From NCBI GenBank assembly GCA_000703065.1, contig JNLK01000001.1, positions 1,178,001 to 1,242,000 of the forward strand: DNA of 64,000 nt, in the 5' to 3' direction. The number at the start of each line of letters is the position of its first letter. The first letter of the stretch is position 1. The stretch comes from Lachnospiraceae bacterium AC2029. GTDB taxonomy: Bacteria; Bacillota; Clostridia; Lachnospirales; Lachnospiraceae. Of the stretch, positions 4,575-29,810 are shown piece after piece. The translations under genes were made by a program, and so were the position numbers. The notes beneath the pieces were generated by a model, which was not told the DNA's origin, ran no database searches, and saw only the letters and a program-made list of their open reading frames with translations.

Positions 4575-6599
4575 CTACTCCGCTGTAAGATATTCTTCCA
4601 GTGTCTCCTTTATATCATTTTGCATTTCTTCCGGGAAAGAGGAAATCCTTGGCATGTGGTTACCCGTCGGATGAACGAATACCTTCACATTCGGATTTTC
4701 GGTTTCGCGGATCCGCATGCAGTACCAGGGATCTGCCACGCCGTAGATCATGACATGTTTTGCCCGGGTTGTATCCATGGAAGCGGAAAGCGCAGCAAAG
4801 AATGTTCCGTCATAGGTAAATGCCTCCTTCTGCTCTTCCGTAAATACGAAATTCCGGATCAGTTCATCTTCCATATCTGCAGTGATGGTCAGTTTATCCT
4901 CAAGCCCTTCTTCCTGAAGTGCTTCTCTGAGGTAAGAGAAATCGTAACGATACTGGCCGTAGGTGGTTGCCGTATTTACATAGTAGGGCCATTCCGTGGA
5001 ATTCGCAGCCCAGTCATCCGGTTTCTGGAGAATGGTTGCTACCTGGAACATCATTGTCAGTTTATAATCTAACGCATCATCAGTATCCTCCGGCAAATTA
5101 ATAAGTACATTGAGTACATCAAAGGATACCACTCGATATTGCCATACAAGAATACCACATTCCAGAGTCCAAAGATCATAGATCATAGATGTCGATACGC
5201 CGTCTCGATAAATAAGACCATTCTGCTCAATATAGGCTTCCAGTTTGGGCAGGAGCAGGTCTTTTTTGCGCATCATTTCGACCTGGAATGTCGTTACCGT
5301 ATCTCTCATTTGGGCGGCTGCTTCTTCTCCGTACGCAGCGTTACCGATTTCTGTATATACGAAGGGGTACATGCGATCATCATCCATTCCGTCGGCGCAG
5401 GGAGCCGCAAACGGAACATATACCTTCATGTCCTCAGGGAAATAGTATGCATATACATTGGTATTCAGACCGCCGCGGCTTGAGCCTGTAGCTGCCCAGA
5501 CATCACCAAGGACCTTGGAAAGCGACTGATAGATCCTATGATAATCATTTGATGCATTTTCGGAAGTCAGATATTCCCAATAATTCGTGTCATCATTCGA
5601 AATACCTTCCGGTCTTGAACCTCCGGAGAAACGACTTTCCACCAGGATCATATTTCCCTCGAGAGTCAGCGCCAGATCTGAGATAAGCTCATCTTTACCC
5701 AAAACTTCGGGATTTTTAGATACTATATCCGGCAGTGAATATCCGTAGGTCTCAAGGACATTTACGGAAGCGTCTTTTCTGAAGCCGAGCAGAACTCTCT
5801 GGGGGAAGGTTCCCTTTGACGGATCACTCCAGTCTAATGGCTGCTCAAAGACAACCATATACCTCTCACTGTAGAAATCTGACAGATTATCAACCTTTTC
5901 AACACTGATCACCCCATCCAGTTTCTTCAGCTTCGTCGGAAGATCCTCCTCAACAGGTCCGGTCCAGACGCCCGACTCATCAAAGACATATACCACTCCG
6001 TTGATGGTTTTCTCTCCGGTCACCATCGCTCCGTTGTCGAAGTAATACCAGTTCCCGTCAAGTTTTTTCCAACCATCCGCCATGGCTCCGCTTTTGTTGA
6101 AATAATACCATTTTCCGTCAAGTTTCCTCCAACCGGTCTTCATGACTCCGCTTTTTTCAAAGTAATACCATTTTCCGTCAAGCTTCCTCCAGCCGGTCTT
6201 CATGGCTCCGCTTTTTTCAAAGTAATACCATTTTCCGTCAAGCTTCCTCCAGCCGGTCTTCATGACTCCGTTTTTTTCAAGGTAATACCATTTCCCGTCA
6301 TACTTCTTCCATCCGGTCTTCATGGCTCCGCTTTTTTCAAAGTAATACCATTTTCCGTCAAGCTTCTTCCAGCCGGTCGCCATATACCCTGTGGCTTCAA
6401 AGTAATACCAGTTTCCTTCGTACTGAACCCATGCACTCTTCGCATAGGATCCGTCGGAATAAGAATACCACCAGCCTTTGCTGTTATGCTGCCAACTGCC
6501 GCTCGCCGCTTCGACGGAAGAACCATCTCCCCAAGCTACGGCGGGAAGCATGAGTGATGCCGTAAGGATCCCGCATAATGCATTTTTCCATTTTTTCAT
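4575..6599 (-). CDS. Exported S37 (PS-10)-family peptidase with N-terminal cell-wall-binding repeats
   Basis: 674 residues. A signal peptide is followed by about eight choline-binding-type repeats (residues ~35-210), six of them nearly identical 60-bp DNA units at 6010-6380. The rest matches the PS-10/S37 tripeptidyl-aminopeptidase family: GSSRGG nucleophile near residue 365, Asp in GVADPWYC near 623 and His in GNHMPRI near 648, giving a complete Ser-Asp-His triad. The product should be a wall-bound exopeptidase. It is the first gene of a two-gene unit with the S41 peptidase. A good AGGGGAGG site precedes the ATG, and the promoter at 6640-6703 has paired repeats typical of LytTR control. Confidence 0.85.
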   Translation of the reverse strand: MKKWKNALCGILTASLMLPAVAWGDGSSVEAASGSWQHNSKGWWYSYSDGSYAKSAWVQYEGNWYYFEATGYMATGWKKLDGKWYYFEKSGAMKTGWKKYDGKWYYLEKNGVMKTGWRKLDGKWYYFEKSGAMKTGWRKLDGKWYYFEKSGVMKTGWRKLDGKWYYFNKSGAMADGWKKLDGNWYYFDNGAMVTGEKTINGVVYVFDESGVWTGPVEEDLPTKLKKLDGVISVEKVDNLSDFYSERYMVVFEQPLDWSDPSKGTFPQRVLLGFRKDASVNVLETYGYSLPDIVSKNPEVLGKDELISDLALTLEGNMILVESRFSGGSRPEGISNDDTNYWEYLTSENASNDYHRIYQSLSKVLGDVWAATGSSRGGLNTNVYAYYFPEDMKVYVPFAAPCADGMDDDRMYPFVYTEIGNAAYGEEAAAQMRDTVTTFQVEMMRKKDLLLPKLEAYIEQNGLIYRDGVSTSMIYDLWTLECGILVWQYRVVSFDVLNVLINLPEDTDDALDYKLTMMFQVATILQKPDDWAANSTEWPYYVNTATTYGQYRYDFSYLREALQEEGLEDKLTITADMEDELIRNFVFTEEQKEAFTYDGTFFAALSASMDTTRAKHVMIYGVADPWYCMRIRETENPNVKVFVHPTGNHMPRISSFPEEMQNDIKETLEEYLTAE

Positions 6600-6639
6600 A
6601 CTTGAAGTAACCTCCCCTTAGATATGTTTTATTTATTTA

Positions 6640-6703
6640 CTTATAACATAAATCCGCTTTGTTCTTATACTCGCTGCACGAATAGGCGAAAATGATGCAC
6701 GAA
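6640..6703 (-). promoter_or_regulatory. Promoter with LytTR-like direct repeats
   Basis: On the minus strand TTCGTGCA occurs twice with a 21-bp period (plus coordinates 6675-6682 and 6696-6703). Twenty-nine bases downstream comes TGTTATAAG, an extended -10 (CTTATA at 6640-6645). No good -35 is present, which fits an activator-dependent promoter. The same layout is repeated at 11321-11384. It drives the S37/S41 pair. Confidence 0.6.
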
Positions 6704-6889
6704 AAATACCCCTATACGTTAGACTTCATTGAACTGCGAAGAGGTCTTCTCGTCAATCCTGAGTATATCGAAAGGATCAGCGGCGCTTCCGTTAACCTTT
6801 CTGACGGTAGCACCTATATCCTTCCCAAGGCGAAAAAAGATTCAGTGATATCACAGTACACAATCTATGTCACAAATATAACAAACTGA
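6692..6889 (+). pseudogene. C-terminal remnant of a LytTR DNA-binding domain
   Basis: 65 codons. FIELRRGLLVNPEYIERI followed by LSDGSTYILPKAK is the second half of a LytTR domain, as found in AgrA/LytR-type regulators. The receiver domain and the first LytTR strands are missing, and no ribosome site precedes the ATG, so this is a broken gene. It starts inside the paired repeats of the divergent promoter, suggesting the regulator gene once lay next to its own target. Confidence 0.65.
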
Positions 6890-7012
6890 CATTACTTCTT
6901 CAAGCACGGAAGATGAGGGATTGCCTTCATTTATCATTCTGTCCCTGAATGCTGACAGACCGGTCAGATTATCTTCCTTTTTTTCAGCCTTTTCGATCTC
7001 ACGTTTGTCTGC
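6851..7012 (-). pseudogene. Unrecognised coding remnant
   Basis: An open frame of 53 codons with a protein-like, charged composition (KREIEKAEKKEDNLTGLSAF, then VLEEVMSV). It has no start codon and overlaps the end of the LytTR fragment on the other strand. The family is unknown; it is probably the tail of a lost gene. Confidence 0.3.
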
Positions 7013-7040
7013 TTAATCAAGTGCACCAAAAACCACGATC

Positions 7041-7072
7041 GAAAAAGAACGTAGCTAAAAGCCACGTTCTTT
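7041..7072 (-). terminator. Terminator after the cell-wall-binding operon
   Basis: Minus strand: GAACGTGGCTTTTAGCTACGTTC followed by TTTTTC. It ends the transcript that finishes with the gene at 7133. Confidence 0.7.
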
Positions 7073-7132
7073 CTGGTAAACCATGTGAATTCACTCATAT
7101 TCATTTCATGATATGCTGCATAATTCTATCGT

Positions 7133-8206
7133 CTATTTCCATGTAAAATCCGGATAATCCCCATATCCACTCAGAGTAAAATCCTTCGAGTAATCTGTGT
7201 TTTCCCACAGAATATTCATATAATCATTGTCCCAGCCGAAGAACCAGATCTGATAACCCACACGATGGATCTCGTATCTGTCTGTATCGATTTTCACGTT
7301 CTTATTCTCTCCTTTGGCACAGCTGTCGGAATAAATCCAGACAAAGTCCTCTTTACTCTTGTCCCAGACCTGCACTTCCAGACGAGCCACATACCACCCA
7401 TCCTGATGAAATTTCAGAGTTGTTGTTCCTTCTTCGTCCTCTACGACGGGATCCACCGGCTCAGTTCCCGGTATATCCGTGATCGTCACACCATCCCAGG
7501 CACCATTCTCATCGACAAAGTATTTCCTGTCGATATAGGCATTCGAATACATACGACCATCACTGTCAAAATAGTACCAGGTGCCCTTGATCTTTTGCCA
7601 GTCGGTCGCCATATCCCCCGCTTTTTTCAGGAAGTACCATACATCCTTATATGAGATCCAACCGGTATGCATCGCACCATTCTTCCCCAAATAGTACCAC
7701 TTGCCGTTATCCTTCACCCAACGGTTTACGGCCATGCTGCCGTCCTTGCCGAAGAAGTACCATTTTCCGTCAATCTTCTTCCAGCCCGTTACCATGGCAC
7801 CATCCTTACACAGATAGTACCACTTGCCGTTATCCTTCACCCAACGGTTTACGGCCATGCTGCCGTCCTTGCCGAAGAAGTACCATTTTCCGTCAATCTT
7901 CTTCCAGCCCGTTACCATGGCACCATCCTTACACAGATAGTACCACTTGCCGTTATCCTTCACCCAACGGTTTACGGCCATGCTGCCGTCCTTGCCGAAG
8001 AAGTACCATTTTCCGTCAATCTTCTTCCAGGTATTCTTCAACACGGTTCCGTCCGAAGAACCGGTTGTTGTCAGGCTGTACCCAACCCCTTCTCCCCCTG
8101 CATATGCAGTAAGTCCGGTTCCCATGAAGCTTCCCATGATTGTAGTCATTGACACAATCCCGCTCAGGATCCTTACCGCTCTCGCTGATCTGTTCCTTTT
8201 CTTCAT
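7133..8206 (-). CDS. Exported cell-wall-binding repeat protein, unknown C-terminal domain
   Basis: 357 residues, starting at 8206 where AAAGGAGG stands 10 bases upstream. It has a signal peptide, then alternating GWKKIDGKWYFFGKDG and NRWVKDNGKWYYL repeats. Three near-perfect 123-bp DNA copies lie at about 7700-8040, a likely site of copy-number change. The last ~95 residues (KFHQDGWYVARLEVQVW to the end) form a beta-rich domain I do not recognise. No catalytic motif was seen, so it may be an adhesin or a wall-bound carbohydrate- or protein-binding factor. It is the last gene of the unit running from 11157. Confidence 0.8.
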   Translation of the reverse strand: MKKRNRSARAVRILSGIVSMTTIMGSFMGTGLTAYAGGEGVGYSLTTTGSSDGTVLKNTWKKIDGKWYFFGKDGSMAVNRWVKDNGKWYYLCKDGAMVTGWKKIDGKWYFFGKDGSMAVNRWVKDNGKWYYLCKDGAMVTGWKKIDGKWYFFGKDGSMAVNRWVKDNGKWYYLGKNGAMHTGWISYKDVWYFLKKAGDMATDWQKIKGTWYYFDSDGRMYSNAYIDRKYFVDENGAWDGVTITDIPGTEPVDPVVEDEEGTTTLKFHQDGWYVARLEVQVWDKSKEDFVWIYSDSCAKGENKNVKIDTDRYEIHRVGYQIWFFGWDNDYMNILWENTDYSKDFTLSGYGDYPDFTWK

Positions 8207-19005: not shown

Positions 19006-19153
19006 TTGTTCTCCTGTTCTGTGGAATCCGGGTAATCCCAGAATCCTCCCTTATGAAAATTCTCAATACCCAAAGGCTTTGCTGTCAGCTTTTAACCCTA
19101 TAAGCAAGACGTCCCCCGCCTCCAAGGCGGTGGGATGAATTGCCAATCAGCGC

Positions 19154-19182
19154 TTGAAAGTCGAACGCATGTTTGGTATAAT
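19154..19182 (+). promoter_or_regulatory. tnpB promoter with LexA-type box
   Basis: TTGAAA (19154-19159), 17 bases, TATAAT (19177-19182). CGAACGCATGTTTG at 19162-19175 matches the LexA operator pattern CGAACRNRYGTTYG. The ATG lies 7 bases after the -10, so the mRNA would be leaderless. Confidence 0.65.
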
Positions 19183-19188
19183 AAATGT

Positions 19189-20331
19189 ATGAATAAAGCA
19201 CTCAAATACAGATTATACCCAACAAAAACACAGATGCAGATGTTTGCCAAGACCTTCGGCTGTTGCCGTAAGGTTTGGAATCTTATGCTGTCAGAAAAGG
19301 TAGAAGCCTATAGGAATACCGGTAAGTTTGTCGTTGTAACTCCTGCCAAGTATAAGACAGATTACCCATTTCTAAAGGAAGTAGACAGCCTGGCATTGGC
19401 CAATACTCAACTGAATCTGCAGAAGGCATTTCGCAATTGCTTCAGCAAAACGCGGAAGAAACGTAATGCTTTTCCAAAGTATAAGTCCGCAAAACACAGT
19501 CGCAAGTCGTACACCACGAATAATCAGAAAGGAACTGTTGCTATCCTTGGAAACTCTATACGATTACCGAAGGTTGGTGTTGTAAGGGCGGTAATCCATC
19601 GTATGCCGGATCCGGATTGGAGACTGAAGTCCGTAACTATATCACAGGATTGTGATGGTAAGTATTTCGCGTCTGTGTTGTTTGAGTATGAATCTACATC
19701 GGTGGAACCAGTACTATGCACTGAAAATGCTATAGGGTTGGATTATTCATCAAAATCTCTATATGTGGATAGTGATGGAAATCATGGCAGCCACCATAAG
19801 TATTATCAGGAAAGTCAAAAGCGTCTTGCAAAAGAACAACGCAGACTATCTCGTAGGATTGGTTCGAGAAAAGGTGAATCCAAATCATCCAATTATCTGA
19901 AACAGTTGCATAAAATAAACAAAATACACAAACATATATCCAACCAGCGGAAAGATCAGCTGCACAAACTGTCAACAGGGATAGCCAACCGGTATGACAT
20001 CGTCTGTGTCGAATCATTGAACATGAAGTCTCTGGCCAATAAGAGCTTTGGCAACGGCAGAGCTACGTTGGATAACGGTTATGGAATGTTTCTCGGCATG
20101 TTGGAATACAAACTGTCCGACCGCGGGAAATGTCTGGTTCGGGTAGACAAATGGTTTCCAAGTAGTCAGCTTTGCCATTGTTGTGGGACCATAAATCCGT
20201 TGACCAAAAAGCTTGATGTTCGGAAATGGACATGTCCTGCTTGTGGTGAAACGCATGATCGCGATATCAATGCAGCCAAAAACATCCTAACGGAAGGTCT
20301 GCGCATCTATAAACAACAGTTTGTCGCCTAA
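19189..20331 (+). CDS. tnpB: TnpB RNA-guided nuclease of an IS605-type element
   Basis: 380 residues, beginning MNKALKYRLYPTKTQ as in the family. RuvC catalytic residues: Asp in GLDYSSKSLYVD, Glu in VCVESLNMKSLA, Asp in THDRDINAAKNI. A zinc ribbon CHCCG...CPACG lies before the last motif. All key residues are present, so the nuclease could be active with its omega RNA encoded at the 3' end. There is no ribosome-binding site. The start 7 bases after the -10 implies a leaderless message. Confidence 0.9.
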   Translation: MNKALKYRLYPTKTQMQMFAKTFGCCRKVWNLMLSEKVEAYRNTGKFVVVTPAKYKTDYPFLKEVDSLALANTQLNLQKAFRNCFSKTRKKRNAFPKYKSAKHSRKSYTTNNQKGTVAILGNSIRLPKVGVVRAVIHRMPDPDWRLKSVTISQDCDGKYFASVLFEYESTSVEPVLCTENAIGLDYSSKSLYVDSDGNHGSHHKYYQESQKRLAKEQRRLSRRIGSRKGESKSSNYLKQLHKINKIHKHISNQRKDQLHKLSTGIANRYDIVCVESLNMKSLANKSFGNGRATLDNGYGMFLGMLEYKLSDRGKCLVRVDKWFPSSQLCHCCGTINPLTKKLDVRKWTCPACGETHDRDINAAKNILTEGLRIYKQQFVA

Positions 20332-21670: not shown

Positions 21671-22396
21671 TCATCCGCAGTAGATCTGTATCGCTCGTTG
21701 AGTAAATTCAGCAGTTCCTTCTCCGCCTATCTTATCAATATTCTCGGTGAATTCTCCGCCACCGGCATACATCTTACCAAGGCCGGAAAGAATTTCATTC
21801 GTACACTGATAATAATGCCCGGAAATAAAGTTCTGCAGCTTCTTTACCTGATCCTGAACTTCTAAAGATGCAGGATCCTGATCTTTCATCGCTCCGAACT
21901 CTTCAAAGATCTTCATAAAATCGGCCATCATTCTTTTTTCTTCGTTCTTTGACCGCTTCCCGTTCTTCTCTTCGAATTCCTTATATTCCGGAGTATTGCC
22001 CCACTGCTCTTTTGCGCGCTTAGCATATTCGTCTAATTTACTTGAATCAAATGCTGTAAAATCCAAATGTCTCACTCCTCTCAGTTTTAAACCACGGCAC
22101 ATACTGATCAGATTTTCAATATGTTCCTTCTTTAATTCAAGAAGTTCTATCTGCTGATCAAGTGCCAATCCTTTGTCAAAATCAGATCTGGTTACGATAT
22201 CCTTGATATCCTTAAGCGGAAACTCAAGCTCACGAAACAGTAAAATCTGCCCCAGTCTCTCCAGCGCCGCATCGTCATACAGCCTGTATCCCGACTCGGT
22301 ATACTCCGTCGGTTTTAAGAGTCCTATCTTATCGTAATACTGCAGTGTGCGTATACTCACTCCTGTCAGCTTACTCACTTCATTAACTGTCTTCAT
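21671..22396 (-). CDS. MerR-family regulator with TipAS domain
   Basis: 241 residues, starting at 22396 (GAAGGAG 10 bases upstream). N-terminal winged helix KTVNEVSKLTGVSIRTLQYY, a dimerising coiled coil, then a TipAS-like ligand domain (~110-241, ending TQRAIQIYCG). TipA-type proteins bind thiopeptides or other lipophilic drugs and activate MerR-type promoters. Its own promoter has the stretched spacer typical of that control, so it is probably autoregulated. It has no obvious efflux gene next to it. Confidence 0.9.
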   Translation of the reverse strand: MKTVNEVSKLTGVSIRTLQYYDKIGLLKPTEYTESGYRLYDDAALERLGQILLFRELEFPLKDIKDIVTRSDFDKGLALDQQIELLELKKEHIENLISMCRGLKLRGVRHLDFTAFDSSKLDEYAKRAKEQWGNTPEYKEFEEKNGKRSKNEEKRMMADFMKIFEEFGAMKDQDPASLEVQDQVKKLQNFISGHYYQCTNEILSGLGKMYAGGGEFTENIDKIGGEGTAEFTQRAIQIYCG

Positions 22397-22424
22397 GGCT
22401 ATCATCTCCTTCACGTGTGATTAC

Positions 22425-22455
22425 ATCATAAACTATTACGTTACGTCATAGTCAA
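22425..22455 (-). promoter_or_regulatory. MerR-type promoter with 19-bp spacer
   Basis: Minus strand TTGACT (22450-22455), 19 bases including ATGACGTAACGTAATA, then TATGAT (22425-22430). The 19-bp spacer is the hallmark of MerR-activated promoters. Confidence 0.75.
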
Positions 22456-22544
22456 GCAAAAATAATAATTCTGCAAAAAAAAATCGGCATCAAATCCATT
22501 TCTGAATTCTTTGCCATTCTTTCATCATCGTTCATATCCGAACC

Positions 22545-22961
22545 ATGATTGAGCAGGGAATCCATGTATCTGCACGCGATGAACTCTTCGGACGCGGGGA
22601 CGGTGGACTGACACTGACGCTTCTCCTCCCCGAACTGAAGGACGCATCAAAAAAAGAAAGGCAACAGGCTTTCGCTACCTTTCTGAATGATCTTGATATA
22701 TTTGAGAAATACGGCATGGAAATCCGTCACAGCTTTGCGTTAGATGAGGCCGGCGTCCATGTCAGCTACACACTCCGGCTTTCCTGCCTCATGGCACTAA
22801 GCAGCACCATCAACAAGGCGGAGTATTACATCGCCGGAACCGAGCACAGCGACTGGGATGTAAAAGTCTTTGAAGCCGAATACAGAGAATGCCTTCGGAA
22901 TTATGAGATTGATATCCAGAATGAGCTAAAGAAGAGCTCGTCCGGAAAACGAACGAGCTGA
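22545..22961 (+). pseudogene. Unrecognised protein or fragment
   Basis: 138 codons, MIEQGIHVSARDELFG to ELKKSSSGKRTS. No ribosome site precedes the ATG, and the frame is open 39 bases further upstream without another start, so the front of the gene may be lost. The composition is protein-like (LTLTLLLPELKDASKKER, FEKYGMEIRHSF). I do not know the family. The end overlaps a small hairpin AGCTCGT/ACGAGCT. It lies between the MerR promoter and the palindrome array and may be a remnant of plasmid-like DNA. Confidence 0.4.
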
Positions 22962-22981
22962 TAGCATACCCAACCACATTA

Positions 22982-23347
22982 AATTTCTACCCAGTGGGTA
23001 GAAATTATCCTTCATTCGGCGCAGGAAGTTAGTGCCGGCGGCACTATCTTTTTGGAGCCATTGGCTCCAAATTTCCCTTCATGTCGTTCTGGGGCAATGC
23101 CCCAGAAATTCGATTACGAAAAATACTGTATAGACACCTCTGTTTATCTCCGGAAGTCTGGAGCATTGCATATCCTGTATGAAATTTAGACCCAGTGGGT
23201 CCAACTTTCCGGCTGAATCTACTGCATGCATCTGATACCCGATACTGATAATCATTTTGGAACCATCGGTTCCAACTTTCCCTTCATGTCATTCTGGGGC
23301 ATTGCCCCAGAAATTCTATCAAAATGTTCGGGCCCATTGCCCCCGAA
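22982..23347. repeat. Array of short compensating palindromes
   Basis: Seven near-perfect palindromes with different arm sequences but the same build: arms of 6-12 bp around a 1-3 base centre. Positions: 22982-23006 (TTTCTACCCAgTGGGTAGAAA), 23051-23071 (TTTGGAGCCAtTGGCTCCAAA), 23087-23107, 23189-23201, 23257-23275, 23292-23312 and the imperfect 23327-23347. Two are followed by the same AGAAATTC. An eighth lies at 23462-23478 inside the M23 gene start. No ORF is seen here. Confidence 0.8.
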
Positions 23348-23468
23348 AAGCCATGCCAATATGACATTTTGGAGCCATTTCAACTCATGCCAAAAAATGT
23401 GAAGCCCCGACAAGCAACGCCTCCATGTACATCTCGGGGACCGAGAGTACAGGAGACTGCTTCTGGGG

Positions 23469-23963
23469 GTGCCCCAGACCCCGTCGTTTGGAAAAAGGAA
23501 CGAGCTCTTTTATAATAATGTGGAGAAATTTGAAGTGGATCTCAGGGCGGAGTGCTCTGTGAACACCAGTCTGGGCATTTTCCTTTGGCCTTGTCCATCC
23601 AGTAAGAGTATAACATCCTATTTTGGTAATCGTGTGGCTCCGAAAGCCGGTGCGTCCACGGTTCATAAGGGTATTGACATAGGTACATCCATAGGAGAGT
23701 CGGTTATTGCAGCAGCTGCAGGGAGGGTAACTACTGTCGCATATAGCGGAGCCCGGGGATATTACATTGTAGTGGTTCACGGGAACGGCTATGAAACCTT
23801 GTACCAGCATCTCAGCCGACAGGATGTCCGGACAGGAGATATGGTAACGGCTGGCCAGCAGATTGGAGCAGTAGGAGAAACCGGTATCAGCACGGCGCCA
23901 CATCTTCACTTTGAGATTCAGGTGAACGGAACTCCGGTGGATCCGTTGCAGTTTTATGATTAA
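23469..23963 (+). CDS. M23-family peptidase (left copy), no signal peptide
   Basis: 164 codons from a GTG. The frame is open further upstream through the arm boundary, so the true start is uncertain. Residues ~40-160 form a LytM/M23 endopeptidase domain: YFGNR, STVHKGIDIG, GNGYETLYQHLS and the metal motif HLHFEI, all typical of zinc peptidoglycan hydrolases. The first 35 residues (PSFGKRNELFYNNVEKFEVD) do not belong to M23 and look fused on; FEVDLRAE recalls plasmid replication proteins, but weakly. No export signal exists. The right copy at 27686 differs in about a dozen residues; this copy has lost the Asp before HGNG. Confidence 0.7.
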   Translation: MPQTPSFGKRNELFYNNVEKFEVDLRAECSVNTSLGIFLWPCPSSKSITSYFGNRVAPKAGASTVHKGIDIGTSIGESVIAAAAGRVTTVAYSGARGYYIVVVHGNGYETLYQHLSRQDVRTGDMVTAGQQIGAVGETGISTAPHLHFEIQVNGTPVDPLQFYD

Positions 23964-23985
23964 GAGATTGTCAGGATATAGAATG

Positions 23986-24024
23986 CTCGGGTGTCTGTAT
24001 TATCGGCTACTCGAGCTTTTTTTA
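23986..24024 (+). terminator. Terminator after left M23 gene
   Basis: GCTCGGGT pairs with ACTCGAGC around a 14-base loop, followed by TTTTTTT. Confidence 0.8.
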
Positions 24025-24141
24025 TTGTTTTGAAAAATCTTTTTCGGACTGTTGTAGTTCTGCTGTAGATGCCTTGATATACTGCGTTCAGAAACAAACA
24101 AAAACCCCGGACGGGGAAACAAAAACGAGGAGGAAATCAAT

Positions 24142-24612
24142 ATGAAAAAGAAGGAAGAGCGCTCCGAGTACTATTATAAGAGACAGAATGAGTATACACG
24201 TCTCTGTCAAACAAGAAAGATGGTCACCATAACCAACAATGGCGCTTACCACGCTAAGGATATTTGTCTGTATGGCAGAAGAATCCTGGGAGTGTATCCT
24301 GACGGAGAATATCTCCTTGACGAATGGGAGGTGATTGGCAAAGGAAAGTGCCTCCATGGACTGGGTACCCAATCCACGACGTATGACATTGAGGGAACTT
24401 ACGCAGTATTAGCCTTCAGTTTTGATATTACCGCAGGAACCGATTATCCATACAGCGGAGTTTTCTGGAATAATGAAGACGACACAAGTTGGGAAAAAAT
24501 CGACATCAACCTCGACGGTTCCTGCAGAATGGCTGATATCAATATCAAGGTCGGCAATAAGACCGTAGTTGACGAAGAAAACTGCTCATCCCATAAAGAG
24601 TGGACTCCGTAA
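24142..24612 (+). CDS. Small beta-rich protein, left variant without signal peptide
   Basis: 156 residues, with GAGGAGG 9 bases before the ATG. The leader (with hairpin CCCCGgaCGGGG at 24105-24116) and the 3' end are almost identical to the gene at 26806-27510, but the middle differs and the signal peptide is absent. Shared pattern: YGR, GEY/GDY, FSFDI, GTD-PYSG, a GGC/GSC Arg stretch, and the C-terminal NCSSHKEWTP. The family is not recognised. The beta-strand layout faintly recalls aegerolysin-like or other small beta-sandwich proteins. As it cannot be exported by itself, it could be a cytoplasmic partner or a decayed copy. Confidence 0.65.
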   Translation: MKKKEERSEYYYKRQNEYTRLCQTRKMVTITNNGAYHAKDICLYGRRILGVYPDGEYLLDEWEVIGKGKCLHGLGTQSTTYDIEGTYAVLAFSFDITAGTDYPYSGVFWNNEDDTSWEKIDINLDGSCRMADINIKVGNKTVVDEENCSSHKEWTP

Positions 24613-24688
24613 ACGTCTTCCTAAACCAGGCAGAAGTTGATGATGATCAGCAAAAACATTAAAACGCAAGAAAGAAATGAGATCAAAT

Positions 24689-24722
24689 ACTCCCGGCATA
24701 CAGAAAATGCCGGGAGTTTTCC
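24689..24722 (+). terminator. Terminator after left variant gene
   Basis: ACTCCCGGCAT-acagaaa-ATGCCGGGAGT followed by TTTT. The identical structure is inverted at 26694-26729. Confidence 0.85.
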
Positions 24723-24827
24723 GTTGCGTGATTTTGGAACGATTGGGGACGGTTCCGGGACGCCCAGAAGGGTGCATGACAGGATATAGACGTCAATAAT
24801 TATAATATAATGAAAAAGGAGTAAACT

Positions 24828-25115
24828 ATGGAAATCATCAAAACGGAAAATGGAACTGAGGTGACAATGAAGCTGGTGGGCTGGCTGGATACCAAGGCGG
24901 CCCCGGACCTGAAGGACGAGGTTGATAAATTAAAGGAGGGTGATAGTCTGATCCTTGATCTGGCTGAATTGGAATATGTTGCATCCTTCGGACTGAGACA
25001 GTTTGTTGCCACCTATAAGAAGTTGAACGGGAAGATGATGCTTCGGAATGTACCGGATAATATCATGGGTATTCTGAAGACAATGGGTATGGATAAGAGA
25101 ATTCCAATAGAGTAA
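24828..25115 (+). CDS. STAS-domain anti-sigma factor antagonist-like protein
   Basis: 95 residues, one STAS domain: beta strands with LVGWLDTKAAPDLKDEVD, then LILDLAELEYVASFGLRQFV and a C-terminal helix GILKTMGMDKR. In SpoIIAA-type proteins a Ser follows this beta strand; here the region reads YVASFGLR, with Ser in the expected place. AAAGGAG precedes the ATG by 7 bases. It ends 15 bp from the convergent GGDEF gene. Both lie between the inverted arms. Confidence 0.85.
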   Translation: MEIIKTENGTEVTMKLVGWLDTKAAPDLKDEVDKLKEGDSLILDLAELEYVASFGLRQFVATYKKLNGKMMLRNVPDNIMGILKTMGMDKRIPIE

Positions 25116-25130
25116 GGTGTCCATTCGGGT

Positions 25131-26516
25131 TTACTGGTTCTTATTCTTATTCGTATTCGTATAGAAGGAAACCTTTCCTCTGCCGTTCTCCTTGGATTCA
25201 TAGAGAGCGTTATCTGCTCTTTTGAAGAGCTCCTGAGCCTTTATACCCACGCGTCCGAAAGCACATCCCACGCTGCAGGCTATCGCAGGTATTGTCTCAT
25301 CCTCCGAAGTATCATTCAGCTTCCTGAGTATCATTTCTACCTTACGGGTTACCAGATCCTTCATGGAAGAATCGGAACGGATCATTATGACTGCGAATTC
25401 GTCACCGCCAAGCCGGCACACATAGTCCTGGGACCGAAAGCTTGCAAGAAGGATATTTGCTGCTTTTTTGATCACCTTGTCTCCCACATCATGACCATAA
25501 TGATCATTAACTTCTTTGAAGTGATCCAGATCAATGATAAGCAGCGCGGATGTCTCCATATCTACATTGTTGAGGAAGAAATCATAGCCTCTCCGGTTGA
25601 AAAGACCGGTCAGGGGATCGTGGTTTACATCATAATTAAGCTTATTCTCGGTTTCCTTCGTGGTGTAATACATGAGGTTATAATTCTTTGCAAGGAAACG
25701 AACCTCATATGCACCTGACAGCGGGATTTCTTCTTCCCTTCGGATCAGCTCCACACAGTTTCGGAGCGGATTGAATACCAGGATACGGGTGAAAAGAACG
25801 ATGCCCATCATGATACCGATAAGCAGGAATGTCAGGACATGCTCTATAAAGACCTGCTGGCTGAGCTTTGAAGACATTTCATTCTGCATAACATATACAT
25901 CGTGCTCCAGCCTGTCAAGACAGTCGTTCATATCTTCATTGATACGCTGCTTGGCCTTAAGATAGTCCTGATCAAAGAGGATCGTTACAGCAGCATTTTT
26001 CTTATCATTGGGAGGAAGAGCGGCGTCCTTCTCCGAAAGTGTGATATTTCTGATCTCCTGAGGGAAATCATCCACGTTCAAACCATAACCCTCGATGGTG
26101 AGCCTTGCCGAATAGTATTCGATCTTCATGAGATTCAGGGATTCTTCCATACCCATCTCCAACTTCTTGATCACGGAAGAATCGCCGTGGAAATCCTTTA
26201 ATCTGTCAATTGCTTTTTCTCTGCGCTTAACGTTCTTAGCCTCATTAAAATAATTATCCAGATGAGTTCTGTCGCCGGTCACTGCAAAGCATCGGATCTC
26301 TTCGGTAAGATAATCCGAAGCAAGCTTCAGGTCGAAGGAATCCTGACGCCATTGCAGAAGATCCTGGGTAATGGTATGAGTCTCCTTGTACAGGTTGTTT
26401 GTTCTGTTCATGGCATAGATCAGAGCAACGGAAGTGACGACCGCTATTATCAGCATGATAATATTCAGTTTTCTGAGTGATATTCCTCTTTTACTAATTA
26501 CCGAAGAACCTTTCAT
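25131..26516 (-). CDS. Membrane-bound GGDEF diguanylate cyclase
   Basis: 461 residues. Two membrane segments (~15-35 and ~230-255) flank an outer helical sensor of about 190 residues. The C-terminal domain (~300-455) has NHDPLTGLFNRRGYD and the active-site loop CRLGGDEFAVI, so it should make cyclic di-GMP. The second metal Asp in LLIIDLDHFKEVNDHYGHD is present. The I-site RxxD is not obvious. With the STAS gene it forms the centre of the inverted repeat and could change orientation if the arms recombine. Confidence 0.9.
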   Translation of the reverse strand: MKGSSVISKRGISLRKLNIIMLIIAVVTSVALIYAMNRTNNLYKETHTITQDLLQWRQDSFDLKLASDYLTEEIRCFAVTGDRTHLDNYFNEAKNVKRREKAIDRLKDFHGDSSVIKKLEMGMEESLNLMKIEYYSARLTIEGYGLNVDDFPQEIRNITLSEKDAALPPNDKKNAAVTILFDQDYLKAKQRINEDMNDCLDRLEHDVYVMQNEMSSKLSQQVFIEHVLTFLLIGIMMGIVLFTRILVFNPLRNCVELIRREEEIPLSGAYEVRFLAKNYNLMYYTTKETENKLNYDVNHDPLTGLFNRRGYDFFLNNVDMETSALLIIDLDHFKEVNDHYGHDVGDKVIKKAANILLASFRSQDYVCRLGGDEFAVIMIRSDSSMKDLVTRKVEMILRKLNDTSEDETIPAIACSVGCAFGRVGIKAQELFKRADNALYESKENGRGKVSFYTNTNKNKNQ

Positions 26517-26693
26517 AATCTGTCAGCCCCCTTGAAGGGAATATAAGTATTGCTGTTGGTTCAAAAAATAAATCACTAAATCATATTATATCACACAAAA
26601 TCAACAAACTGCATAATTTTTTTTTCGCCTTGGAACAGCCTTCCTGTATGACAGGGGAAATGGAACCGTCCCCAATCGTTCCAAAATCACGCA

Positions 26694-26729
26694 ACGGAAA
26701 ACTCCCGGCATTTTCTGTATGCCGGGAGT
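26694..26729 (-). terminator. Terminator after right variant gene
   Basis: Mirror copy of 24689-24722: a GC-rich 11-bp stem with T-run on the minus strand. Confidence 0.85.
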
Positions 26730-26805
26730 ATTTGATCTCATTTCTTTCTTGCGTTTTAATGTTTTTGCTGATCATCATCAACTTCTGCCTGGTTTAGGAA
26801 GACGT

Positions 26806-27510
26806 TTACGGTGTCCACTCATCGTGAGATGAGCAGTTCTTTTCTTCGATAACCCGATAATAATTCGACGGATCACGCGGCTTGTCATAACAGATCTTGA
26901 TATATACATTTGCGTTTCTGCAGCCACCATTGGTGCCAATATCTATATCGAAGACCACATCTTCCACGTTGTCCCAGATTATACCACTATACGGGAAGTC
27001 CGTTCCCCATTTGATATCAAAACTGAAAGCAAACTGTGCATAGTCTCTGGTTATCTCAAATGTTTTTCCTCCCCAAGTATCGTTTGCTTCATAAAGAATC
27101 TCCCACTTACCAAGGATGTAGTCTCCATTGTCAGCAACATCTACGATCTTTCTGCCATAGAATTTTATTGACTTGTTCATGTAGAGTCCCGCGTTACCCA
27201 TAGTCACTCTGAGAGGCTTCCACCTTCTAAGCTGCAGTTCCTTCATTCGCTTATAGTATCTGTCGGACTTCTGTCCGGTTGTCGCAGCGGCGTTGGTTGC
27301 TGCCTTCATCGCAGCTTCACTGTGAAGTGTTGCAGTTTCCGGTGTTTCAACGCTGATAGAAGCATCAATAAGTCTTCCTTGCGGTTCATCAAATGCACTA
27401 TGCGCCGAAGCCACCATCGGTGCTGCCATACTCATGGTCATTGCTGCTGCCAGTACTGCTGTAGCGAGTCTTGCTTTCTTTGCCCTGATCATACTCATCA
27501 TCTTTTTCAT
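26806..27510 (-). CDS. Small exported beta-rich protein, right variant
   Basis: 234 residues from the ATG at 27510 (AAAGGAGG 9 bases upstream). A signal peptide ends near VASAHS (residue ~37). An Ala-rich linker is followed by a basic YKRMKELQLRRWKPLR and a beta-rich domain: IKFYGRKIV, GDYILGKWE, FSFDIKWGTDFPYSG, TNGGCRNANVYIKI. It ends EEKNCSSHDEWTP like the left copy. The protein should be secreted. No family recognised; a toxin, inhibitor or matrix role is guesswork. The 5' leader hairpin and terminator are shared with the left copy. Confidence 0.7.
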   Translation of the reverse strand: MKKMMSMIRAKKARLATAVLAAAMTMSMAAPMVASAHSAFDEPQGRLIDASISVETPETATLHSEAAMKAATNAAATTGQKSDRYYKRMKELQLRRWKPLRVTMGNAGLYMNKSIKFYGRKIVDVADNGDYILGKWEILYEANDTWGGKTFEITRDYAQFAFSFDIKWGTDFPYSGIIWDNVEDVVFDIDIGTNGGCRNANVYIKICYDKPRDPSNYYRVIEEKNCSSHDEWTP

Positions 27511-27625
27511 ATTGATTTCCTCCTTTTTCGTTTCCCCGTCCGGGGTTTTTGTTTGTTTCTGATCGCAGTATATCAGGGCCTCTACATCAGAACTACAACA
27601 GTCCAAAAAAGATTTTTCAAAACAA

Positions 27626-27665
27626 TAAAAAAGCTCGAGTAGCCGATAATACAGCCACCCGAGTA
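27626..27665 (-). terminator. Terminator after right M23 gene
   Basis: Mirror copy of 23986-24024, minus-strand stem ending ACTCGAGC with TTTTTT. Confidence 0.8.
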
Positions 27666-27685
27666 TTGTTAATTCTTACATTTTC

Positions 27686-28180
27686 TCATTTAAAGAACTG
27701 CATTGGATCCACCGGTGTTCCATTCTCATGCACTTCAAAATGCAGATGCGGTGCTGTACTGATTCCTGTCTCTCCTACTGCTCCAATCTGTTGTCCTGCC
27801 TTCACCATATCTCCTGTCAGAACATCCTGTCGGCTGAGATGCTGGTATAGGGTTTCATATCCATTCCCGTGATCCACCATAATGTGATACCCACGGGCTC
27901 CGCTATATGCGACAGTAGTTACCCTCCCTGCAGCTGCTGCAATAACCGACTCTCCCATGGATGCACCTATGTCAATACCCTTATGATCCGTGGACGCACC
28001 GGCTTTCGGAGCCACACGATTACCAAAATAGGATGTTATACTCTTACTGGATGGACAAGGCCAAAGGAAAATGCCCAGATTGGTGTTCACAGAGCACTTC
28101 GCCCTGAGATCCACTTCAAACTTCTCCACATTATTATAAAAGAGCTCGTTCCTTTTTCCAAACGACGGGGTCTGGGGCAC
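27686..28180 (-). CDS. M23-family peptidase (right copy)
   Basis: 164 codons from a GTG, like the left copy. YFGNR, STDHKGIDIG, VDHGNGYETLYQHLS and HLHFEV are all present, so the zinc site looks intact and is closer to the family norm than the left copy. The N-terminal 35 residues are again not M23-like. No signal peptide is present. In-frame coding continues upstream to the edge of the duplicated arm, which suggests that the arm's edge cuts a longer ancestral reading frame. Confidence 0.75.
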   Translation of the reverse strand: MPQTPSFGKRNELFYNNVEKFEVDLRAKCSVNTNLGIFLWPCPSSKSITSYFGNRVAPKAGASTDHKGIDIGASMGESVIAAAAGRVTTVAYSGARGYHIMVDHGNGYETLYQHLSRQDVLTGDMVKAGQQIGAVGETGISTAPHLHFEVHENGTPVDPMQFFK

Positions 28181-28329
28181 CCCCAGAAGCAGTCTCCTGT
28201 ACTCTCGGTTTCCGAGATGTACATGGAGACGTTGCTTGTAAGAAGTCTACCAATTGCAGAGGGCCTCAAAACGGGACAAATATCTATTCATAGTCACTGG
28301 ATTTACCCCCTTATACTTGCGCTGCTGCC

Positions 28330-28494
28330 GTTGTCCCATCGGGACAACAACTGATCCGCCTTATTGTCCATAATCGAGTAGGAGGTGTCCCCTCCTACTC
28401 GATGTCGCGTTGGCCGGCAAATGTGCGTGCAAGCACGCCCGCTTGCCGGCCGTATCGCGCAAAGTAAAGAGCAGCCTCAATTGAAGCTGCTCTT
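28330..28494. repeat. Cluster of four strong hairpins outside the right arm
   Basis: 28330-28348 GTTGTCCC-ATC-GGGACAAC has the same build as the palindromes at 22982-23347. Then follow 28373-28403 (13-bp perfect arms ATCGAGTAGGAGG), 28412-28451 (GGCCGGCAA/TTGCCGGCC with an inner GCGTGC/GCACGC), and 28467-28494 (AAGAGCAGC/GCTGCTCTT). The rest of 28181-28773 shows no supported gene. Confidence 0.75.
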
Positions 28495-28728
28495 CATAAA
28501 TCCGCATATCTCTGTCATTCCACTGCCTGGTGTTATCTCGTTTTGTCCTGTTTTCTTTCCCTTGTTTTTTCCCTTATCAGCTTCGCGGACACCCTCGACA
28601 CGGTATAACACCTCGTAACATCATAGGGCGTTCATTATTCATTAACCCCTTATGGAATAAGGCTTCTCAGTGATTTTGGCGTGTCCTTTTAACACCATAT
28701 AAGAGCTATCAGAAAGCACTCTTTCGAA

Positions 28729-28772
28729 TTCCGAATTATGTTCTAACAATCATCCCGACAAACGAGAATTTG
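28729..28772. repeat. 45-bp dispersed repeat, copy 2
   Basis: Partner of 20476-20520. It lies directly after the stop of the HIT gene. Confidence 0.75.
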
Positions 28773-28773
28773 C

Positions 28774-29175
28774 TTACATCTTCACTTTATCAAATACAGT
28801 TTGAAGTTCTTCCTTCGCCCCTTCAAATTTAGGCCAGGCATCAATTCCATCATTACTTTTACGAGGGATAATATGGATATGAAAATGATTAACCGACTGT
28901 CCTGCACTCTCATCGCTGGCGTTAAGCAAATTTATACCATCGTAACCACAGTTTTCTGTTAAATGATTCGATACTCGTTTTACGGTATTCATAACAGCAG
29001 AAAGCGTTTCTGAATCGCAATCCAATATATTCTTGCAATGTTTTTTGGGGATAACAAGTATATGACCATCAACATCCTTGGCAATATCCATAAATGCGAG
29101 TGTTTCGTTGTTCTCATATATTCTCAACCCTTGAATTTCACCGGATGCTATTTTACAAAATATACACTCTTCCAT
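28774..29175 (-). CDS. HIT-family nucleotide hydrolase
   Basis: 133 residues, starting at 29175 with GGAGG 5 bases upstream. CIFCKIASGEI at the N-terminus and HFHIHIIPR (histidine triad) near residue 100 place it in the HIT/Hint group of nucleoside phosphoramidate hydrolases. Complete. It follows the GrpB gene at 29244 on the same strand by about 70 bp. Confidence 0.9.
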   Translation of the reverse strand: MEECIFCKIASGEIQGLRIYENNETLAFMDIAKDVDGHILVIPKKHCKNILDCDSETLSAVMNTVKRVSNHLTENCGYDGINLLNASDESAGQSVNHFHIHIIPRKSNDGIDAWPKFEGAKEELQTVFDKVKM

Positions 29176-29243
29176 TTGTACCTCCACAAATACCGATTGT
29201 CGGTCTAGAAGTCCTTTTATTGTTTGCTCATAATCAGAATATA

Positions 29244-29810
29244 TCAGTATCGGTCTCCATATTCCTTTCGTGCTTCTGCCGTCCATTTGGAGATGAAATC
29301 CGTCTTCGCATCTGTATATGCATCCCGGTCATGCTCATATTGTTTCCAAAGCCGGAGTTTCAAGGTTTCATATTCTTTTGCCACGGCAGGATGCTCGTTC
29401 AAATAATCACGGAAGTACAGTTCATCATTGTCCCCGGCGTACCGCAGATGGATATGATATACTTTATCCGCAAATCCGTTTTCAGTATATCCCTTATTAA
29501 GTGAAATCCGGTTTGCCTCGGCGTACATGACGGTAAAACCGCTCTGTTCCAATAGTTGTGCTATATCTTTCATGTCAGCGCTTTGAGGAATCTCAATCAT
29601 CACATCAACGATATTTTTAGCCCATATTCCCTGAATGGCGGTGCTTCCGATATGACTGATCCGCACAACAGGCTGAGCAGCTAAAAGACCGGTCAGCGTT
29701 TGCCTGATCTCATTGAAGCTATCTTTCCACTGATCATCGTGCGGCACAAGAAAGATGGGAAACAATGCCCATAACTCTTCCAATGTCATTTTAGATAAAT
29801 CTTTTCCCAT
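29244..29810 (-). CDS. GrpB/UPF0157-family protein
   Basis: 188 residues, starting at 29810 with GGAGG 8 bases upstream. ISHIGSTAIQGIWAKNIVDVMI and the C-terminal YTDAKTDFISKW are typical of the family, whose fold is nucleotidyltransferase-like. The biochemical role is unproven. A second GrpB domain is in the fusion at 9997. Confidence 0.85.
   Translation of the reverse strand: MGKDLSKMTLEELWALFPIFLVPHDDQWKDSFNEIRQTLTGLLAAQPVVRISHIGSTAIQGIWAKNIVDVMIEIPQSADMKDIAQLLEQSGFTVMYAEANRISLNKGYTENGFADKVYHIHLRYAGDNDELYFRDYLNEHPAVAKEYETLKLRLWKQYEHDRDAYTDAKTDFISKWTAEARKEYGDRY

Follow-up and report, generated by a model that had tools for sequence, protein, structure and literature searches.

The locus described here raises the question of what two inverted copies of a gene cassette around a pair of signalling genes represent: a switch, a recent duplication, or something else. 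It lies in Lachnospiraceae bacterium AC2029, whose genome (G000 in our sample of one genome per species) is a single contig of 3.86 Mb (JNLK01000001.1). The window, by which we mean the whole stretch of 64,000 nucleotides analysed, corresponds to G000:C1:1178001-1242000. Within it, arm A (23410-24756, plus strand) and arm B (28239-26662, minus strand) are inverted copies flanking a 1,905-bp core (24757-26661) that carries a STAS gene on the plus strand and a GGDEF gene on the minus strand. We read the locus as an inverted pair of mosaic surface-protein cassettes with exchange between the arms, and put the probability of this reading at roughly 0.6. Because the small genes within the arms are only 52% identical and saturated for synonymous change, and because gene A is nearer to a gene of the sister species G019 than to gene B, the small genes appear to be old and their flanks to have been homogenised later.

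A first-pass annotation had reported a large inverted duplication, with an M23 gene, two terminators and a small gene in each arm. The duplication is real, as both a repeat search and BLAST recovered the arms, but each of the two 'M23 genes' is just a remnant some 147 codons long. The inverted repeats comprise 23410-24044/27605-28239 (635 nt, 89% identity), 24018-24125/27525-27632 (94%), 24128-24151/27501-27524 (100%) and 24571-24756/26662-26847 (186 nt, 96%), and the BLAST alignments span 742 bp (91% identity, E 0.0) and 186 bp (96%). Each arm runs from an M23 frame through a stem followed by T's and a promoter/5' untranslated region (UTR) with a small GC hairpin to the small gene and a second terminator (Table 1). 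Both second terminators and the first terminator of arm B were listed by the terminator scan, whereas the first terminator of arm A is placed by alignment only. An Rfam scan of the window returned no match reaching the gathering score, and no credible known RNA was found in 22900-24200 at E <= 10.

Table 1. Features of the two arms, the core and the left flank, in window positions.
Feature	Positions	Strand	Description
Left flank	22506..23419	+	3' part of a helix-turn-helix (HTH) regulator gene and short-palindrome array, up to the arm A junction
Arm A outer block	23410..23517	+	Structured ACAAGCAACG hairpin element
Arm A M23 remnant	23520..23963	+	3' end of a cell-wall hydrolase gene of an integrative and conjugative element (ICE)
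Arm A counterpart of the first terminator of arm B	23986..24015	+	By alignment; absent from the terminator-scan list
Arm A promoter/5' UTR block	24018..24141	+	CCCCGGACGGGG hairpin; 94-95% identity with arm B
Small gene A	24142..24612	+	156 aa, domain-4-like, without signal-peptide region
Arm A 150-bp block	24607..24756	+	Reverse complement of 26662-26811; gene end, terminator 24689-24717, half palindrome 24736-24756
Core STAS gene	24828..25115	+	Pfam 8.6e-11
Core GGDEF diguanylate cyclase gene	25131..26516	-	Pfam 6.1e-38
Arm B 150-bp block	26662..26811	-	Identical to the arm A block; half palindrome 26662-26682, terminator 26701-26729, gene end
Small gene B	26806..27510	-	234 aa, signal-peptide-like segment (by eye) and domain-4-like domain
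Arm B promoter/5' UTR block	27511..27632	-	Alignment with arm A
Arm B first terminator	27634..27663	-	Terminator scan (27663-27634)
Arm B M23 remnant	27686..28129	-	Domain scan and alignment
Arm B outer block	28132..28239	-	Hairpin element

Over the aligned arms (1329 columns) identity is 80%, with a range from 52% to 100% between blocks. The hairpin leader is 97.2% identical (3 of 108 positions differ), as are 96.7% of positions in the first part of the M23 remnant (8 of 243 differ) and 95.4% in the terminator, promoter and UTR (7/152). Lower values were found for the rest of the M23 remnant (81.3%, 38/203), the last 14 codons of the small genes (81.0%, 8/42) and the small-gene body (52.1%, 191/399). 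The synonymous divergence (dS) of the M23 remnants is 0.05 over the first 81 codons and 0.95 over the remaining 66. The 3' block is identical in the two arms (0 of 144 positions differ) and forms part of a perfect tract of 150 bp. When the 74 mismatches were shuffled over the 930 columns outside the small-gene body, a tract of at least 150 bp arose in one of 10,000 shuffles. Besides short matches, some of them to a palindromic repeat, the 3' block occurs in the own genome in the two arms only; among 60 relatives, with at most five candidates scored per genome, its matches are of 23-27 bp only.

The small genes themselves seem to have a different history. About 71 of 89 synonymous sites are changed between genes A and B, which is beyond correction. 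In a midpoint-rooted protein tree of 11 rows, gene A groups with the G019 gene (support 96/94) and gene B joins these two at 84/87. The A protein is 50% identical to the G019 protein and 42% identical to B. At the DNA level, the coding end of gene A and the G019 gene share 75% identity along 205 bp, up to the stop region, and no match to the 3' block of the arms was found in the G019 locus. Judged from these sequences, the lineages of A and B seem to have separated before those of A and the G019 gene did. A recent duplication of the whole arm is ruled out by the saturated synonymous change and by the tree; the earlier suggestion of a recently duplicated cassette thus stands as to duplication in kind, but not as to its date, given that saturation and the closeness of A to the G019 gene. 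A third member of the family is encoded in the own genome at 2560479.

Because the split between A and B seems to predate that between A and the G019 gene, yet the 3' flanks of A and B are identical, we infer exchange between the arms, which probably homogenised the arm flanks later. Recombination between the arms is also supported by the fact that identical or near-identical blocks adjoin saturated ones and that the M23 remnants are mosaic; gene conversion would be the cause of the flank identity. Alternatively, there may have been no exchange: the two surface genes may have been acquired separately, and purifying selection on their promoter, UTR and terminator may have kept these blocks alike. 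The promoter block, which has relatives of about 74-86% identity elsewhere in G019, G035 and the own genome, may indeed be a conserved regulatory module. However, the 3' block includes the half palindrome, differs at no position, and yet has no counterpart elsewhere in the own genome, or in the 60 relatives, beyond short matches, and selection alone hardly explains the M23 mosaic, so that we consider this explanation improbable. An earlier study describes homogenisation of arms and inversion of the spacer for inverted repeats (PMC8604942). As in that study, perfect-identity tracts stand beside diverged tracts in inverted arms; the repeats there are short and from yeast, whereas here the arms exceed 1 kb, enclose a diverged gene and flank an at most putative inversion. 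The arm pair is also a natural case for measuring exchange between inverted repeats of more than 1 kb around a diverged gene.

We identified the M23 end at six places in the own genome, as two full genes and four remnants. The full hydrolases (L009 and L011; 591 and 582 aa) both adjoin a VirB4-like ATPase, which at L009 belongs to the NCBIfam CD1110 family (1.6e-189). The L009 hydrolase has an M23 and a lysozyme-like domain; the arm proteins have the M23 end only, without the lysozyme-like domain of the full-length ICE hydrolase. The remnants in the arms resemble the end of the hydrolase beside the VirB4-like ATPase of the CD1110-family ICE transfer module, but the arms keep only its last ~147 codons, and no conjugation genes were recognised there. 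All four remnants (A, B, L010 and L012) share one ACAAGCAACG 5' junction and are fused to a 108-bp leader, which is absent from both full genes; the L012 remnant also has an internal deletion. When remnants A and B were compared in 56-nt segments, the first four segments were 94-100% identical and the next four 73-89%. The last four segments of remnant A are 88-91% identical to L009, and segment 336-392 of remnant B is 95% identical to L011. Since the nearest relative shifts along its length, each remnant is itself a mosaic.

The edges of the arms are repeats. The inner edge of both arms is GGAACGATTGGGGACGGTTCC, a pattern found twice in the window versus 0.00 expected, and corresponds to half of a palindrome that is whole at about L075 6300-6350. 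At L076 (4089-5870), an insertion sequence whose open reading frames encode HTH and rve domains splits the loop of this palindrome, and the core of our locus may likewise sit where the loop would be. The repeat at the outer edge joins a conserved ACAAGCAACG to a hairpin whose sequence varies, followed by GCTTG or a similar sequence and a stem rich in GC. In several copies, short palindromes precede it in arrays, each array with stems of its own. An integron-like, oriT-like or iteron-like nature of these hairpin and palindrome repeats is conceivable. Folded as DNA, the outer element of arm A has a z score of -2.83. Of the 61 genus genomes, four contain the strict pattern of the element, with seven matches in all, against zero for the reversed control; the copies in arms A and B are one base off this pattern. 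Copies of the element lie in the window at 22978-23500 and 28132-28420, and also at L126, L127, L072, L141, L142 and L144.

These edges could be taken to delimit a composite mobile element, i.e. a cassette unit with an outer hairpin end and an inner palindrome end that was inserted twice in opposite orientation. Such a unit would fit the fixed 5' junction, seen in the four remnant copies of the own genome and also in G010, the occurrence of the leader alone in G035 and the dispersed nature of the palindromic repeat at the inner edge. Nevertheless, no transposase or recombinase was recognised in the arm proteins scanned, the inner half is absent from the other copies, and the small genes have diverged far more than their flanks. 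We regard insertion of a composite element as rather unlikely and favour exchange between two mosaic cassettes. Each arm would then be composed, from the outside inwards, of a repeat element, a hydrolase remnant, a terminator-like stem, a promoter and UTR, a small gene, and a terminator with half palindrome. The small genes may be paralogs of long standing or may have been acquired separately. Recombination (gene conversion) between the arms would have homogenised the flanks that they share, and the M23 part would also have been exchanged with hydrolase copies elsewhere. The core genes would be unrelated signalling genes that came to lie between the arms, STAS by duplication and GGDEF by relocation. 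The core could flip via the 150-bp blocks, and the same terminators would insulate both orientations.

The core STAS gene and about 50 bp upstream of it are an 81-83% DNA copy of the STAS gene located after a SpoIIE-type phosphatase gene, found in the own genome at 744036-744320 (81%) and in G010 (83%). In G019 and G024 the identity is 77-79%, the G024 phosphatase being judged by DNA similarity. A phosphatase with an ATPase domain precedes the STAS gene at L114 of the own genome and in L116 and L117. The core itself holds the STAS and GGDEF genes only, without the phosphatase and kinase genes of the partner-switching module. Matches to the GGDEF protein at E <= 1e-40 occur in 21 of the 61 genus genomes (own included), with orthologs of 86-87% amino acid identity at other loci in G271 and G019. 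In G271 the gene is convergent with a phosphatase and an anti-sigma type ATPase, on a 6.8-kb contig that ends beyond the GGDEF gene; the neighbours in G019 are presumably an ABC transporter and a GH26 enzyme, as labelled by eye. At ten GGDEF loci of relatives, several of them on short contigs, neither the arms (E <= 1e-6) nor the STAS gene (E <= 1e-4) were found. The GGDEF and STAS orthologs of relatives occupied different loci, with no arms beside them. As far as these loci show, the STAS-GGDEF pair looks like a local assembly.

The first-pass annotation had also proposed a possible switch. Taken as a phase-variable inversion, this would mean that the arms recombine, turn the core around and change how STAS, GGDEF or the small genes are expressed. 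The core is indeed flanked by inverted identity, perfect over 150 bp and 91% over 742 bp, and the homogenised blocks suggest that the arms pair. An identity of 150 bp exceeds the minimum usually quoted for homologous recombination, and physical flipping of 24757-26661 by recombination between the 150-bp blocks is thus plausible. A scan of the nine proteins from 21671 to 29286 recognised no recombinase, which would argue against a switch, although homologous recombination would need none. The consequences of a flip, however, would be slight. Both arms present the same terminator to the core, so that STAS and GGDEF should be little affected by a flip, and, judged from sequence, the 150 bp identical on both sides should leave each promoter-gene and gene-gene junction as it was. 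None of the relatives examined was found to have this STAS-GGDEF pair, although G024 has another GGDEF frame close to STAS. We therefore consider a regulatory switch unlikely and phase variation at this locus improbable; as a switch, the locus would be another inverton.

What the small genes encode was not evident from sequence searches. Pfam gave no credible match to A or B at E <= 1, with a single row for A that is at chance level, NCBIfam gave none at E <= 0.1, and sequence searches of the PDB gave weak matches only (best E 0.088). We modelled the structure of the B domain (164 residues) from an alignment of 35 rows, comprising A, B and 33 stand-alone proteins, and obtained a mean predicted local distance difference test (pLDDT) score of 90.8 and a predicted template modelling (pTM) score of 0.84. 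A model built from just the A and B sequences was of low quality (pLDDT 52.7) and yielded the same top family in the structure search. The first 31 Foldseek matches of the B-domain model in the PDB are cytolysins, with E values from 4.3e-5 and 23 chains at E <= 0.001; several of these are titled just 'toxin' and are presumed by us to be cytolysins. The 32nd match is a Eubacterium rectale protein (2mca). Against the isolated membrane-binding domain 4 of pneumolysin (5cr8), the template modelling (TM) score is 0.43 by query and 0.59 by target, with a root-mean-square deviation of 7.8 and 8% identity.

The Foldseek matches, together with the fusion of the same domain to Thiol_cytolysin in relatives, support a predicted fold that resembles domain 4 of the cholesterol-dependent cytolysins (CDCs). 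The likeness lies in the predicted fold and in the fusions of relatives to the Thiol_cytolysin body. Unlike CDCs, the arms encode this domain alone, with no pore-forming part: at E <= 1, neither A nor B matches the Thiol_cytolysin pore-forming region (PF01289). The chains matched by structure are 7-13% identical, and no cytolysin model matched in Pfam or NCBIfam at the thresholds above. Gut-type bacteria also have toxins related to the cytolysins, namely the two-component CDC-like (CDCL) toxins of Bacteroidota (PMC11169675). The window proteins differ from these in having no pore-forming part. Gene A has a 222-bp alignment gap just after its start, where gene B has a signal-peptide-like segment. 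The product of gene B should be a secreted binding-type protein, whereas gene A has probably lost its export signal and is probably decaying or has a cytosolic product.

One such fusion is a 488-aa protein of G112 (L070), in which residues 9-358 are Thiol_cytolysin (7.3e-79) and the C-terminal part is homologous to the small genes; the domain is also fused to Thiol_cytolysin at L141, L166, L170, L178 and L180. A Thiol_cytolysin-type gene ending in the domain-4-like domain adjoins a palindrome-hairpin element at L141/L151 (G016:C44). A search with protein B found 3 of 200 genomes of the taxonomic family, and a search with an alignment of the small-gene family found 3 of 392 genomes of the order and 7 of 61 of the genus (own included in each). 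Protein B alone had no match in a contig collection, in which the alignment detected 28 loci, some sharing a genome and some known from the earlier genome sets. Five of the 28 loci carry the domain at the end of a Thiol_cytolysin protein (L166, L167, L170, L178 and L180), L167 being counted by a match position equal to that of the G112 protein rather than by a Pfam scan of its own. At one locus (L181) the frame is cut by the contig end. The remaining 22 are stand-alone complete frames of 146-288 codons.

Several of the stand-alone copies form tandem arrays, with six at L155 (6994-12107), four at L158, three and one cut at L159, and two and one cut at L162; all four loci come from metagenome-assembled genomes (MAGs) labelled Oscillospiraceae. 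Across the 15 pairs of the L155 array, mean pairwise identity is 0.70 in the 60 nt upstream, 0.59 in the signal region and 0.53 in the body. Proteins of genus members recur in rumen-type MAG records, which suggests that the window, too, comes from a rumen-type bacterium. Response-regulator genes lie near stand-alone copies in L150, L147 and L155, the last with a histidine kinase as well. The response regulators of L147, L150 and L155 (and, by eye, those of L071 and L072) have no Pfam match in their C-terminal half, and lie near domain-4-like or cell-wall-binding-repeat genes.

We tentatively suggest an undescribed family of stand-alone, secreted domain-4-like binding proteins that rumen Clostridia have multiplied as cassettes, in arrays of up to six or in an inverted pair, with conserved leaders, strongly diversified bodies and two-component genes nearby at several loci; this broader proposal is possible rather than probable. 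No stand-alone domain-4 family was found in the literature search, which covered parts of the sources, and such a family may still be in print. The main interest of the locus lies in a fold known from the targeting part of a pore-forming toxin family, which rumen-type bacteria have in proteins that stand alone, are probably secreted and in some cases are encoded in arrays; the family is missed by Pfam and NCBIfam and is the new element of the locus. If the proposal is true, a diversifying surface-recognition system would have been made from the targeting domain of a toxin, and the inverted arms would be a gene-conversion pair in which flanks are held common while bodies vary.

Several points weigh against these readings. 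Transfer of gene A between species would also explain its grouping with the G019 gene, in a tree that is midpoint-rooted. States before and after conversion were not seen, and selection on the UTR and terminator could hold some of the blocks alike. The G019 flanks are unlike the arms, besides weak similarity in the leader, and the order of events therefore cannot be polarised. The trend to conserved leaders and diverged bodies is weaker in L155 (0.70 versus 0.53) than in the arms. The export signal of B was judged by eye, and the numerical fold match to domain 4 is moderate. Finally, an accidental pairing of the core genes is weakened because other GGDEF-domain frames lie near STAS genes: in G024 (L118 8451-9867) one with 34% identity over the domain is convergent to STAS at a distance of about 0.7 kb, and in G010 (L116) another (31%) lies about 7 kb away.

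The left flank of arm A has a second copy in the own genome (G000:C1:2121822-2122735, 95%) and a relative in G010 (83%). The second copy adjoins an integrase-type gene that is apparently cut short. A TnpB/IS605 OrfB gene is located at 19135-20331 of the window, about 3 kb upstream of arm A. Further away, window positions 6015-8040 contain internal repeats, partly similar to a cell-wall-binding-repeat gene at L010.

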